A stretch of 64,000 nt of DNA from Sphaerobacter sp. Its GTDB lineage: Bacteria; Chloroflexota; Chloroflexia; Thermomicrobiales; Thermomicrobiaceae. The stretch is taken from NCBI GenBank assembly GCA_029961075.1, contig JASBVL010000034.1, positions 1-64,000 of the forward strand. Direction: 5' to 3'. A program made the position numbers and the translations under genes. Below are positions 5,589-10,506 of the stretch, one piece after another (position 1 is the first letter of the stretch; each line of letters opens with the position of its first letter). The notes under the pieces are model-generated. The model saw nothing but the letters and a program-made list of their open reading frames with translations, ran no database searches and was not told the origin of the DNA.

Positions 5589-5862
5589 TCAGACGATCGC
5601 GCCGGAGCATGACACGCGTTCGTCCGCGGCGCTGGCTACAGGACGAATGCTGGCTTTCCGCGACTGTCCCGACCAGCGCCCCTACCGGATTGGGAGCCGC
5701 TGAGCGCGTACTTGGGCTTGACAAGGCCTTCCGGGTTCCGGATGATGACCGCACCGGTAATCCGCGCGGTGCTGTTGGAGCCCCTGCGCAGTCCGTCGTT
5801 GGACGCTTCCCTCGCCTAGGAGCATCCTCCGCGCGTTTCACGCACTCCCCTGGAGGGTGATC
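5589..5862 (+). promoter_or_regulatory. Upstream region of ctaG with candidate sigma-70 promoter
   Basis: No credible gene is seen in this 274-bp gap. A perfect -35 hexamer TTGACA (5718-5723) is followed after 17 bases by GATGAT (5741-5746), a moderate -10 box, which would give an untranslated leader of a little over 100 bases before ctaG. The 83-codon open frame inside the gap lacks a family resemblance and reads through the promoter, so I do not call it. Confidence 0.45.
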
Positions 5863-6735
5863 GTGGTCATCCCCCTGCTCCATGCAGCCAGCGCTGCGAT
5901 CCCGGAGGCGTGGTACCGGGCCTGGCACGCCGATCCGCTGATCATGCTGCTGCTCGGCGGCTCCGCCGCGTGGTACCTGCTCGCCTACCGGGCGGCCGCC
6001 CGGGCCGGCCGGCGGGTGCCGCCCCGGTGGCAGGTCCTCGCCTACCTGGGTGGGCTGGTGAGTCTGGCCGTGGCGCTTCTGGGGCCGCCGGACCACTTCA
6101 ACGGCGTGCTCTTCTCGATCCACATGGTCCAGCACCTGATCCTCATGCTGGTTGCCGCGCCGCTGCTGGTGTTGGGCCGGCCGGTGCAGGTCCTCCTGCG
6201 TGGCCTGCGCCCTCGCCACAGCCGCGCTCTGATGGGGATCACCGCCCGGCACCCCGGGCTGCGCGGGCTGCTCGGTGTGGTCGTCCACCCGGTGACTGTG
6301 TTCCTCCTCTACAATGGGAGCTTCCTGTTCTGGCACCTCCCGGGACCATATCAGGCCGCCGTGCGCAACGACCTCATCCACGATCTGGAGCATTTCGCCT
6401 TCTTCGGCACGGCGCTCCTCTTCTGGTGGGTGCTGATCGACCCGGTCCCGCGGCACTATCGCCTGTCCACGACCGCAGCCGCGCTGCTGCTGTTCGCGAC
6501 CTGGATGGCCGGGGACCTCATCTGCGCCACGATCACCCTGTCGCGCGACCTCATCTATCCGGTCTACGCCGAGACGGAGACGCCCTGGGGGTTGAAGCCG
6601 CTCGGCGACCAGCGGCTTGGGGGCGCGATCATGTGGGCTAGCGCGGGACTCTACTACGCGGTGGTCCTGATCGGTCTCCTGGCCGCGCCGTACCTCCGAA
6701 CGCACCCGGCGGGCCACGCCGGCCAGCACGCCTGA
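5863..6735 (+). CDS. ctaG: Caa3-type cytochrome oxidase assembly factor CtaG
   Basis: This 290-residue protein has about seven membrane segments and matches the Caa3_CtaG family, which helps assemble heme-copper oxidases, probably in copper delivery. Conserved features are the HMVQHLILMLVAAPLLVLG segment with its histidines, FLFWHLPGPYQAA, HDLEHFAFFGTALLFWW and a late GLYYAVVLIGL helix. GTG at 5863 is chosen because GGAGG lies seven bases upstream; GTG at 5857 would sit almost on top of that site. It heads the heme-copper gene group but is separated from it by 228 bp that contain hairpins. Confidence 0.88.
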   Translation: MVIPLLHAASAAIPEAWYRAWHADPLIMLLLGGSAAWYLLAYRAAARAGRRVPPRWQVLAYLGGLVSLAVALLGPPDHFNGVLFSIHMVQHLILMLVAAPLLVLGRPVQVLLRGLRPRHSRALMGITARHPGLRGLLGVVVHPVTVFLLYNGSFLFWHLPGPYQAAVRNDLIHDLEHFAFFGTALLFWWVLIDPVPRHYRLSTTAAALLLFATWMAGDLICATITLSRDLIYPVYAETETPWGLKPLGDQRLGGAIMWASAGLYYAVVLIGLLAAPYLRTHPAGHAGQHA

Positions 6736-6963: not shown

Positions 6964-7134
6964 ATGGCACACGACGAGCCGTCCCAGACTCCGGGTCGAG
7001 AGCGACCCCCCTGGCCGCAGGTGCTCCTCGACGACCTGTTCTTGCTCCTGCTCGCCGGGCTGGTGGTGCCGACGTTGACCTACATCGTGTGGGGGCTGAT
7101 CAGCCTGGCCAACGTGCCGCTCTTCGGGGAGTAG
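6964..7134 (+). CDS. Small single-pass membrane protein of the heme-copper operon
   Basis: This is a 56-residue peptide that starts MAHDEPSQTPGRERPPWPQ and then has one hydrophobic helix (VLLDDLFLLLLAGLVVPTLT, continuing YIVWGLISLA), ending VPLFGE. The ATG lies nine bases after GGAAGGGG. It sits 49 bp before subunit II in the same direction. Position and topology are those of small accessory subunits of B-family heme-copper enzymes, such as subunit IIa of ba3 oxidase, but the sequence is not one I recognise. It would normally be missed by gene finders because of its length. Confidence 0.7.
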   Translation: MAHDEPSQTPGRERPPWPQVLLDDLFLLLLAGLVVPTLTYIVWGLISLANVPLFGE

Positions 7135-7183
7135 GGACAGGGCCGAGCGGATCGCCCGTGCGGTGCGGGGAGAGGGGGTGTGC

Positions 7184-7735
7184 ATGGCTGGCCGGTTCAG
7201 CCCGCTGGCGAAGCCCCAGGGGACCTGGTGGAGCCCGCTGGGCCGCGACGAGCGGCTCTGGGTGGCGATCGCTGCCATCTGGGGCCTGGGCAGGTTCCTC
7301 ATGATCGCGTTCATCTTGCCGGCGATCGGCAACGAGCAGAACGAGATCCAGAGTTACCGGATCGATCCCGCCGAGTTCCATCGCCTGGCTACGGAGTTCA
7401 CTGAGGCACACCAGATCGGGGAGATGGATGGCGTCCCGGTGGTCGCTCCGCCGCCCGGCAGCGACATCTACCTGGAGGGGCAGCAGTTCGCCTGGCGGCC
7501 GGTGGTGCAGCTCAAGCGCGGCGAGCAGTACCGGTTCCTGATCTCCTCGCGCGATGTGCAGCACGGCTTCTCGCTGGTGATGTCGCGCCACTCCCTCAAC
7601 TTCCAGGTCTTGCCGGGCTTCGTCACCGCGATCCACCTGACGCCCGAGCAGGTGGGCGAGTTCGCCGTCGTCTGTAACGAGTTCTGTGGCGCGGGCCACC
7701 ACGTCATGACCGGCCGGATCATCGTGACCGACTAG
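7184..7735 (+). CDS. Heme-copper enzyme subunit II (CuA domain)
   Basis: The 183-residue protein has one N-terminal membrane anchor (about residues 27-48) followed by an extracytoplasmic cupredoxin domain. A complete binuclear CuA site is visible: H127 in VQHGFS, then C164-x3-C168, H172 and M175 in VVCNEFCGAGHHVM. It should accept electrons from cytochrome c or a cupredoxin and pass them to subunit I. The short single-helix form is typical of B-family (ba3-like) enzymes. ATG at 7184 follows GGGAGAGGGGG; GTG 7163 is upstream of this site and less likely. The stop is 24 bp from the next start. Confidence 0.88.
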   Translation: MAGRFSPLAKPQGTWWSPLGRDERLWVAIAAIWGLGRFLMIAFILPAIGNEQNEIQSYRIDPAEFHRLATEFTEAHQIGEMDGVPVVAPPPGSDIYLEGQQFAWRPVVQLKRGEQYRFLISSRDVQHGFSLVMSRHSLNFQVLPGFVTAIHLTPEQVGEFAVVCNEFCGAGHHVMTGRIIVTD

Positions 7736-7759
7736 GGCGCGGGGGAAAGGGGCGACACG

Positions 7760-9499
7760 ATGCAGATGGTAATGTCGGGCCTGGCGCGCCGCTGCGGGGT
7801 CACCGGGCTCGTGATCGACCGATCGGCCGAGCGGCTGATCAAGTTCCACGCGGTGACTGCGGTCCTCTTCCTGGCGCTCGGCGGCACGCTGGCGCTGCTG
7901 ATCGCGCTGACCCGCTGGCAGGTGGTCCATCTCCTGCCGGCCAAGCAGTTCTACGCCTTCCTCTCCGCGCACGGCATGGTCATGCTGATCTTCTGGATCC
8001 TCTTCTTCGAGATGGCCGGCCTCGTCTTCGGCAGCACGGTACTGCTGAGCGCGCGGATGGTCGTGCCCGGGCTCGGCTGGGTAGCCTACGCCATGATGCT
8101 GGGTGGCGCGGTGATCGCCACCGGGCTGATGGTGACCGACCGGGCCACGGTGATGTTTACCTCCTACCCACCGCTCAAGGCCCCGCCCCTCTACTACGCG
8201 TCCGTCCTGGTCTTTGCGGTGGGGGCGATTCTGGGGGTGGTTCACTTCTTCATCAACGTCGTCGCCGCGCGAATGCGTGGAGATGTCGGCTCGCTGCCGC
8301 TCTTCACCTTCGCGCTGGCGGGGGCGGGGATCATCGCGCTCTGGAGCCTGATCTCCGGTGCGGTGGCGCTGCTGCCGGCCTTTCTCTGGTCGGCGGGTGT
8401 CATCGACTCGATCGACCCGGGCGTCTACCGGCTCCTCTACTGGGGGCTGGGGCACGGAGCGCAGCAGGTGAACCTGGCGGCGATGGTGGCGGTCTGGTAC
8501 GGGCTCGCCAGCCTGATGACCGGCGGCCGCCCCCTCAACGAGGGCCTGAGCCGCTTCGCGATCGTCCTGTACATCTTCTTCATCAACATGGGGGCGATGC
8601 ACCACCTGCTGGTCGACCCGGGCCTGACCACGTGGCTGCGCAACATCAACACCAGCTACTTCATGTACCTGGCCGTACTCGGGAGCCTGATTCACGGCTT
8701 CAGCATCCCCGCCTCGGTCGAGCTGGGGATGCGGACACAGGGGTACCGGAAGGGGCTGTTCGGCTGGCTGCGGCGGGCGCCCTGGGGTGAACCCGGCTTC
8801 GCCGCGCTTGCGGTGAGCCTCTTCCTCTTCGGGGTCATGGGCGGCATCAGCGGGGTGATCATCGGCGGGCCGCAGGTGAACATGATCGTCCACAACACGC
8901 TGCTGTCGCCCGCGCACTTCCATATGACGGTGGTGGCGGGCACGACGATGGCCTTCATGGGGCTCGCCTATTACCTTGTGCCGCTGATCTTCCAGCGGCA
9001 GCTCGTGCTGCGGCGCTGGGCCACGTACCAGCCCTACATCTACGGCGCGGGCATGGTCGTCTGGGGGCTCGGGACCGGGCTGGCGGGGCACTGGGGCGTG
9101 CCGCGGCGCCACTGGGACATCTCCTTCGACCGGGTCTCGACGCTCCCTACCCAGATCTTCCAGACGACCGTGGTGGATGTCTTCATGGCGCTGCTGGGGA
9201 TCGGCGCGGTCATCGCGGTCATCGGCGGGGCGATGTTCGTGACGATCATCGTCTCCACCGTCGCCCTCGGGCAGCGTACCGCGACGCCGAACCTGGGGCG
9301 GGTCATAGCGGATGCGTTCTCGTCGGCGCCGGCCGTGGCCGGAGCCTCCGGTGAGGAGAAGGAGGCTCCGGTGCCCGCCCATGGCGCGTTCGAGGCGCCG
9401 GGCGCGCTGGTGTTGTCCCTGGCGTTCTTGACGCTGTTCGTGTTGCTGTACGGCTTCTCCTGGTTTGAGTTGAGCACCGTGCCCTGGCGGGTGCGCTAG
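7760..9499 (+). CDS. Heme-copper enzyme subunit I, variant lacking the catalytic tyrosine (possible NO reductase)
   Basis: This 579-residue polytopic protein of the heme-copper superfamily has 12 or more helices. Metal ligands are present: H71 (SAHGMVMLIFW) and H388 for the low-spin heme, H386 for the active-site heme (AHFHM), and H232, H281 and H282 for CuB or FeB. In oxygen reductases of the A and B families the motif after the first CuB ligand is H-P-x-V-Y, the Tyr being cross-linked. Here it reads H-G-A-Q-Q-V, so position +4 is Gln236. In cNOR the same position is Glu. This makes an NO-reducing role plausible, or an unusual oxidase. Heme A is probable because ctaA follows directly. The call of the superfamily is firm; the reaction is inference. 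Confidence 0.85.
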   Translation: MQMVMSGLARRCGVTGLVIDRSAERLIKFHAVTAVLFLALGGTLALLIALTRWQVVHLLPAKQFYAFLSAHGMVMLIFWILFFEMAGLVFGSTVLLSARMVVPGLGWVAYAMMLGGAVIATGLMVTDRATVMFTSYPPLKAPPLYYASVLVFAVGAILGVVHFFINVVAARMRGDVGSLPLFTFALAGAGIIALWSLISGAVALLPAFLWSAGVIDSIDPGVYRLLYWGLGHGAQQVNLAAMVAVWYGLASLMTGGRPLNEGLSRFAIVLYIFFINMGAMHHLLVDPGLTTWLRNINTSYFMYLAVLGSLIHGFSIPASVELGMRTQGYRKGLFGWLRRAPWGEPGFAALAVSLFLFGVMGGISGVIIGGPQVNMIVHNTLLSPAHFHMTVVAGTTMAFMGLAYYLVPLIFQRQLVLRRWATYQPYIYGAGMVVWGLGTGLAGHWGVPRRHWDISFDRVSTLPTQIFQTTVVDVFMALLGIGAVIAVIGGAMFVTIIVSTVALGQRTATPNLGRVIADAFSSAPAVAGASGEEKEAPVPAHGAFEAPGALVLSLAFLTLFVLLYGFSWFELSTVPWRVR

Positions 9500-9510
9500 A
9501 CCCGGCCGGG

Positions 9511-10506
9511 GTGTGGAGCGTGGGAAAGCGCGTGAGAGGTGGTCTGGCTCTGGTGTCCTCGACGAAGGTCCCCCGACGCTTCGCCCGGCTGGCGATCGCG
9601 ACCGCGGTCGCCGGCTACCTCCTGATCGTGGTCGGCGGCACGGTGCGCGTGACGGGTGCCGGTATGGGCTGCGGTCCTGACTGGCCGCTCTGCAATGGTC
9701 GGGTGATCCCGGCGTGGGACATGCTGGCCTGGACCGAGTTCATCCACCGGGTGGTGGCGCTGGCGGTCATCCTGCTGACCGGGCTACTCGCGGTGCAGGG
9801 CTGGCGGCTGCGGCGGGTCAATCCCTGGTTCGCTCGCCTGCCGCTGGCTGCTGTCGGGCTGGTGCTGGTGCAGGCGTCGCTCGGTGCGATCACGGTGTTC
9901 ACCCACCTGGACGCGCTGGTCGTCACGATCCACCTGGGCGTGGCGCTCACCTATCTGGCGATCGGCCTGACCCTCGCCCTGCTCGCGGTGGCGGCGAACG
10001 GCGCGCGCGGGCCGGCCCGCGCTGCGCCCGGCGTGCGGCTCGGTGCCTGGGCACCGGCTGCCGCGGCCGGCGTCTTCGCGGTGATGCTGACCGGGGCGTA
10101 CACCGCGAAGAGCGGCGCCAGCATCGCCTGCACCGAGTGGCCGCTCTGCGGCGGGGCGTGGGTGCCGACTGGCTGGACGCCGGTCGATGTCCACCTTACC
10201 CACCGGTGGACTGCGGTCGTGGCGGCCGTGCTGGTGGCGTTGGTGGGGCGGCATGCCCGGCGCTGGCGCGCGGACGCGCCGGTGCTCGCGACGCTCGGCA
10301 GCACCGCCGACCTGTTGATGGGGGTACAGATCCTGGTCGGGGCGGCGAATATCTGGCTCGACCTCGCACCGGCGGTGCGGATCGCCCACCTGGCGATTGC
10401 GGCGCTCATCTGGGCGCTGCTGGTGCTGCTGGTGCTGCTGGATCGGCGCCCGGCGCTGGCCGCCGCCCCGCTGCCGCGTTCGGCGCCCGCCCCATCCCGT
10501 GCCTGA
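9511..10506 (+). CDS. ctaA: Heme A synthase, CtaA/COX15 family
   Basis: The 331-residue, eight-helix protein oxidises heme O to heme A. Both halves of the internal duplication carry their histidines: EFIHRVVA and HLGVALTYL in the first, HLTHRWTA and RIAHLAIA in the second. Extracytoplasmic cysteine pairs CGPDWPLC and CTEWPLC match the CtaA redox loops. The signature VGGTVRVTGAGMGCGPDWPL is clear. It starts 11 bp after subunit I and so belongs to that operon. The start is uncertain (GTG 9511, 9520 or 9532). No ctaB (heme O synthase) is in the window. Confidence 0.92.
   Translation: MWSVGKRVRGGLALVSSTKVPRRFARLAIATAVAGYLLIVVGGTVRVTGAGMGCGPDWPLCNGRVIPAWDMLAWTEFIHRVVALAVILLTGLLAVQGWRLRRVNPWFARLPLAAVGLVLVQASLGAITVFTHLDALVVTIHLGVALTYLAIGLTLALLAVAANGARGPARAAPGVRLGAWAPAAAAGVFAVMLTGAYTAKSGASIACTEWPLCGGAWVPTGWTPVDVHLTHRWTAVVAAVLVALVGRHARRWRADAPVLATLGSTADLLMGVQILVGAANIWLDLAPAVRIAHLAIAALIWALLVLLVLLDRRPALAAAPLPRSAPAPSRA

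Follow-up and report, generated by a model that had tools for sequence, protein, structure and literature searches.

A probable eNOR-type nitric oxide reductase operon in a Sphaerobacter-like Chloroflexota bacterium

In this study, we found that a gene cluster on the + strand of a Sphaerobacter sp. contig is very probably the operon for an eNOR-type nitric oxide (NO) reductase, carried by a Sphaerobacter-like member of the Chloroflexota. The window, as the whole stretch of DNA analyzed here is called, comprises 64,000 nucleotides (assembly GCA_029961075.1, contig JASBVL010000034.1, positions 1-64,000). Judged from its sequence, the enzyme is a member of the eNOR family, which has already been described. 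CuA-containing NO reductases of the eNOR type were reportedly put forward by Hemp and Gennis in 2008. Our analysis adds to this known family a wider taxonomic range, genome-level support, and a conserved small putative subunit, and the range of eNOR-type genes now extends to a Sphaerobacter-like genome and to Thermomicrobium. N2O is a potent greenhouse gas. The records of Thermomicrobium roseum and Thermus label such genes as cytochrome oxidases, and the presumed N2O-forming step is therefore overlooked in these genomes.

Gene cluster and metal sites

The cluster consists of the following features:

5857..6735, + strand, CtaG-like (Caa3_CtaG) assembly factor, 292 aa (Pfam PF09678, 213 bits)
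6964..7134 (coding to 7131), + strand, small single-TM protein, 56 aa, beginning MAHDEPSQ, identified by conservation
7184..7735, + strand, subunit II, 183 aa, with an N-terminal TM helix and a CuA cupredoxin domain (COX2/CoxB)
7760..9499 (coding to 9496), + strand, subunit I, putative eNOR catalytic subunit, 579 aa (COX1, 197 bits)
9511..10506, + strand, CtaA heme A synthase, 331 aa (COX15-CtaA, PF02628, 136 bits)

Subunit II matched the Pfam family COX2 with 26 bits. It starts at ATG 7184, and an in-frame GTG at 7163 is a possible alternative upstream. Counted from the ATG, the CuA ligands H127, C164, E166, C168, H172, and M175 were all present, and they are kept in 80-82 of 82 subunit II sequences. 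The CuA site is thus complete, as an earlier note on this DNA had stated, and ctaA, which that note had assigned to the operon, directly follows subunit I. The nearest relative was a genome of the same genus (G347), and the nearest named isolate found was T. roseum, which carries the gene on a large plasmid (71% identity). Contamination or a chance reading frame was ruled out by the syntenic copy in the same-genus genome, whose subunit I is 95% identical, together with the dN/dS values between the two (subunit I, 0.13; subunit II, 0.16). The CtaG-like protein is likely an adjacent assembly helper for the enzyme. Such a gene was found near the eNOR genes in close relatives only (3/84 loci), and T. 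roseum also has one upstream.

Subunit I was aligned with the ba3 oxygen reductase of Thermus thermophilus. As shown by this alignment, H71, H232, H281, H282, H386, and H388 pair one to one with the ba3 metal ligands H72, H233, H282, H283, H384, and H386, confirming that all six heme and CuB histidines are kept. The motif at the first CuB ligand reads H232-G-A-Q235-Q236, in which Gln236 aligns with the cross-linked Tyr237 of ba3 and Gln235 with Val236. This agrees with the earlier reading that Gln236 takes the position of the cross-linked Tyr of oxygen reductases and that cNOR has Glu there, since the cNOR/qNOR rows read H-L-W-V-E. Subunit I further differs from ba3 by Phe133 for Tyr133, Val243 for Tyr244, and His312 for Thr312. 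It resembles ba3 in gene order (small TM protein, subunit II, subunit I) and in predicted fold, as an AlphaFold model of subunit I (mean pLDDT 84.7) matched ba3 structures with a TM score of about 0.76. The Thermus ba3 oxidases were its best solved relatives.

Relatives and nitrite reductases

A protein search of 400 Chloroflexota genomes identified a close homologue in 29 of them (48-95% identity), clearly apart from the oxygen reductases at about 30%. A scan of named genomes gave 80 loci in Chloroflexota, Pseudomonadota, Nitrospirota, Nitrospinota, Spirochaetota, Myxococcota, and others, and a plasmid search added homologues from Thermus and Defluviimonas. In the resulting set of 84 named-genome and plasmid loci, the homologues at all 84 have Gln-Gln following the first CuB His. 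A tree of 57 sequences was then examined, in which eNOR was represented by Gln-bearing homologues from Anaerolineales, Ardenticatenaceae, and Thermus standing in for the published accessions, and whose references were A-family, B-family, and cNOR/qNOR rows, leaving aside sNOR, gNOR, nNOR, bNOR, and the C-family (fixN). The 32 Gln-Gln sequences formed one clade (99/99 support) and the B-family a separate one (99/99), with the A-family and cNOR/qNOR rows apart. When only the window's sequence and its same-genus homologue were forced into the sampled B clade, the placement was rejected (p-AU 8.6e-10, at a cost of 90 log units). The grouping outside the oxygen-reductase clades is therefore upheld. 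A relationship of eNOR to B-family oxidases has been described (PMC11388526).

The H-x-x-Q-Q motif was invariant in the 32/32 clade members of the tree and also in a 43-sequence alignment (A2), indicating that the Gln-Gln motif is not due to chance. H-x-x-V-Y, which is found in 13/13 B-family sequences, is absent from the window's subunit I. E84 in helix II was likewise invariant in the clade and is lacking in the B rows. H312 was invariant as well, the same position being Lys in the A-family and Thr in the B-family. Helix VIII has a one-residue insertion compared with A and B oxidases.

We next considered the genomic surroundings of the homologues. Strong NirS matches (>300 bits) were present within 7 kb at nine loci outside Thermus (L037, L041, L059, L062, L078, L079, L091, L094, and L103), and at L041, L059, and L062 nirS lies directly upstream in the same direction. 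At L067, nirK is directly upstream of the eNOR genes. One genome (G088), with a subunit I 51% identical, carries nirK, a small TM protein, subunit II, subunit I, and ctaB on one strand. This gene order corresponds to the published arrangement in Ardenticatena maritima, where eNOR is in an operon with NirK (PMC4653789). The Thermus plasmid locus L116 adjoins nirS, a multicopper oxidase, an Rrf2 regulator, and a DUF542 protein. Among Chloroflexota, NirK was detected in 21/29 gene-bearing genomes versus 37/371 others (Fisher p 1e-13, with shared ancestry ignored). In one genus of the same family (g2), 3/4 genomes have the gene without detectable NirK.

The window's genome (91% complete) encodes a NirK (363 bits) on another contig, outside the eNOR operon, and the same-genus genome has a NirK 77% identical to it. 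The protein contains the stretch HNIDLH, presumably the type-1 copper/Asp-His site of NirK. Neither narG nor nosZ was detected above the cut-off in this 91% complete genome, and no cNOR or qNOR was found in it. It holds four COX1 genes, namely one A-family, two B-family, and the subunit I described here. As only one of the four is NOR-like, subunit I is the genome's only heme-copper-type NO reductase candidate. We infer that NO would be the substrate of the enzyme. The earlier note, whose description held up in every point that could be checked, had proposed a candidate NO reductase with a divergent oxidase as the alternative and had named eNOR among several NOR families. The clade, the invariant Gln, the synteny, and the co-occurrence with NirK point to eNOR; a genome devoid of any other heme-copper NOR argues in the same direction.

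Directly downstream of nirK lies a second multicopper oxidase gene, in the window's genome as well as in the same-genus genome:

L147:2878-5311 (contig C35 of the window's genome, G000), - strand, second multicopper oxidase

The gene could instead encode a divergent B-family-like oxygen reductase without the helix-VI tyrosine, in which Tyr300 of helix VIII or another donor perhaps substitutes. In its favour, no solved fold is closer than that of the ba3 oxidases, the ctaA and CtaG genes belong to oxidase assembly, and Tyr300 is the sole invariant tyrosine without a ba3 counterpart. However, the loss of the Tyr is fixed clade-wide along with the second Gln, nitrite reductases neighbour the gene in relatives, and one A-family and two B-family oxidases are already encoded in the genome. 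On a helical wheel, Tyr300 would also lie about 180 degrees from S309, provided that helix VIII is regular. We therefore regard an oxygen reductase as improbable. A bifunctional NO and O2 reductase serving mainly NO detoxification in air appears somewhat less probable still. The gene occurs in aerobic thermophiles, some without NirK, and microoxic NO reduction has been discussed for eNOR and bNOR (PMC11388526), but such a function is demanded by no sequence feature and the Tyr loss speaks against efficient O2 reduction.

Place within the eNOR family

By its published definition, eNOR has a Gln in place of the Tyr and a cupredoxin subunit II encoded immediately upstream (PMC8756737). The same report places eNOR in Chloroflexi, Thermus, and Rhodothermus, includes the latter two in its eNOR tree, and describes a two-subunit enzyme. 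The biochemical characterisation of eNOR as an NO reductase is reported in PMC11388526, which cites Murali et al. 2024. The window's enzyme has Gln for Tyr, six His ligands to heme and CuB, and a CuA subunit II (7184-7735) immediately upstream, and it groups with Gln-bearing homologues outside the oxygen-reductase clades. Its relatives occur in the published eNOR taxa and have nirK or nirS neighbours. No defining difference was found; the operon here additionally contains ctaA and a conserved third single-TM protein before subunit II. B-family membership does not fit, as the motif reads H-G-A-Q-Q and the enzyme falls outside the sampled B clade. The cNOR/qNOR enzymes would share the proposed reaction, but they have Glu at the site, which subunit I lacks, and are distant in the tree. 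They are not known to have a CuA subunit. Another non-canonical family (sNOR, gNOR, nNOR, or bNOR) is very unlikely, because, although cupredoxin subunits are also described for sNOR and gNOR, the published residues at the Tyr position are Asn for sNOR and CuA-NOR (bNOR), Asp for gNOR, and Glu for cNOR/qNOR, and Gln is found only in eNOR (PMC8756737).

In two Thermus homologues (L116:8989-10671 and L118:6989-8668), located on plasmids of two strains, H-F-K replaces H-F-H, with Lys as the counterpart of the low-spin heme ligand H388.

Third protein, heme supply and proposed mechanism

The 56-residue protein was absent from the earlier note. A single membrane helix is evident in its sequence, which bears the signature Q-x3-D ... 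Y-x2-W-G ... P, with the conserved residues Q19, D23, Y40, W43, G44, and P52. A small protein of this kind lies directly upstream of subunit II at at least 77 of the 84 loci, including 73/84 by tblastn, and was found by pattern at L040, L059, and the Thermus loci L116 and L118. Several loci without a match are cut by contig ends. The dN/dS of the 56-residue ORF was 0.13, and the protein had no match in Pfam or NCBIfam. Because the equivalent place in B-family operons is taken by a small TM protein of another kind, the 56-residue protein is probably a third subunit and the positional counterpart of ba3 subunit IIa. This conserved third gene provides a simple marker for the family and raises a structural question.

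The enzyme likely contains heme A, because the window's genome has two CtaA genes (one in the eNOR operon and the second on contig C93), the T. roseum locus has a ctaA-ctaB fusion, and ctaB-like matches were present at 44/84 loci. The occurrence of ctaA alone would be no proof.

In the mechanism we propose for the eNOR-type enzyme, a soluble donor would reduce CuA of subunit II. By homology to ba3, electrons would then pass from CuA to the low-spin heme (H71/H388) and on to the site formed by the second heme (H386) and CuB (H232, H281, and H282), where two NO would be converted to N2O and water. Gln236 takes the place of the redox-active Tyr, which oxygen reductases require for cleavage of the O-O bond. 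Gln235 lies next to it, at a position that lines the pocket in ba3. The alignment places Y247, S309, H312, and S315 at K-channel positions, resembling Y248/S309 of ba3, and one conserved proton channel is among the eNOR criteria. Proton uptake may proceed via a K-channel analogue of Y247, S309, and H312. The likely role would be to remove and respire, under low oxygen, NO from the cell's own NirK. It is possible, although we hold it only tentatively, that the enzyme is a three-subunit, heme-A-using, proton-pumping eNOR, in which the conserved helix protein of 40-60 residues belongs to the enzyme as a genuine subunit, the heme comes from the dedicated ctaA, and a His K-channel, replacing Lys or Thr, feeds both the site and the pump.

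At nine loci, a second COX1-like protein of about 460 aa (GH[IV][LVI]Q, P[AS]HYH) adjoins the eNOR homologues, read as open frames on the + strand; it does not occur in the window's genome:

L064:2321-3691, + strand, second COX1-like protein
L068, L069, L079, and L086, + strand, second COX1-like protein, starting near 8704, 12068, 8693, and 4694, respectively
L087, L092, L094, and L106, + strand, second COX1-like protein, starting near 8673, 10499, 1558, and 10302, respectively

This protein retains the heme histidines together with the first His of the CuB site, and the His-His CuB pair is missing. It groups in a clade of its own (99/100) and, as judged from these residues, is a CuB-less heme-copper paralogue.
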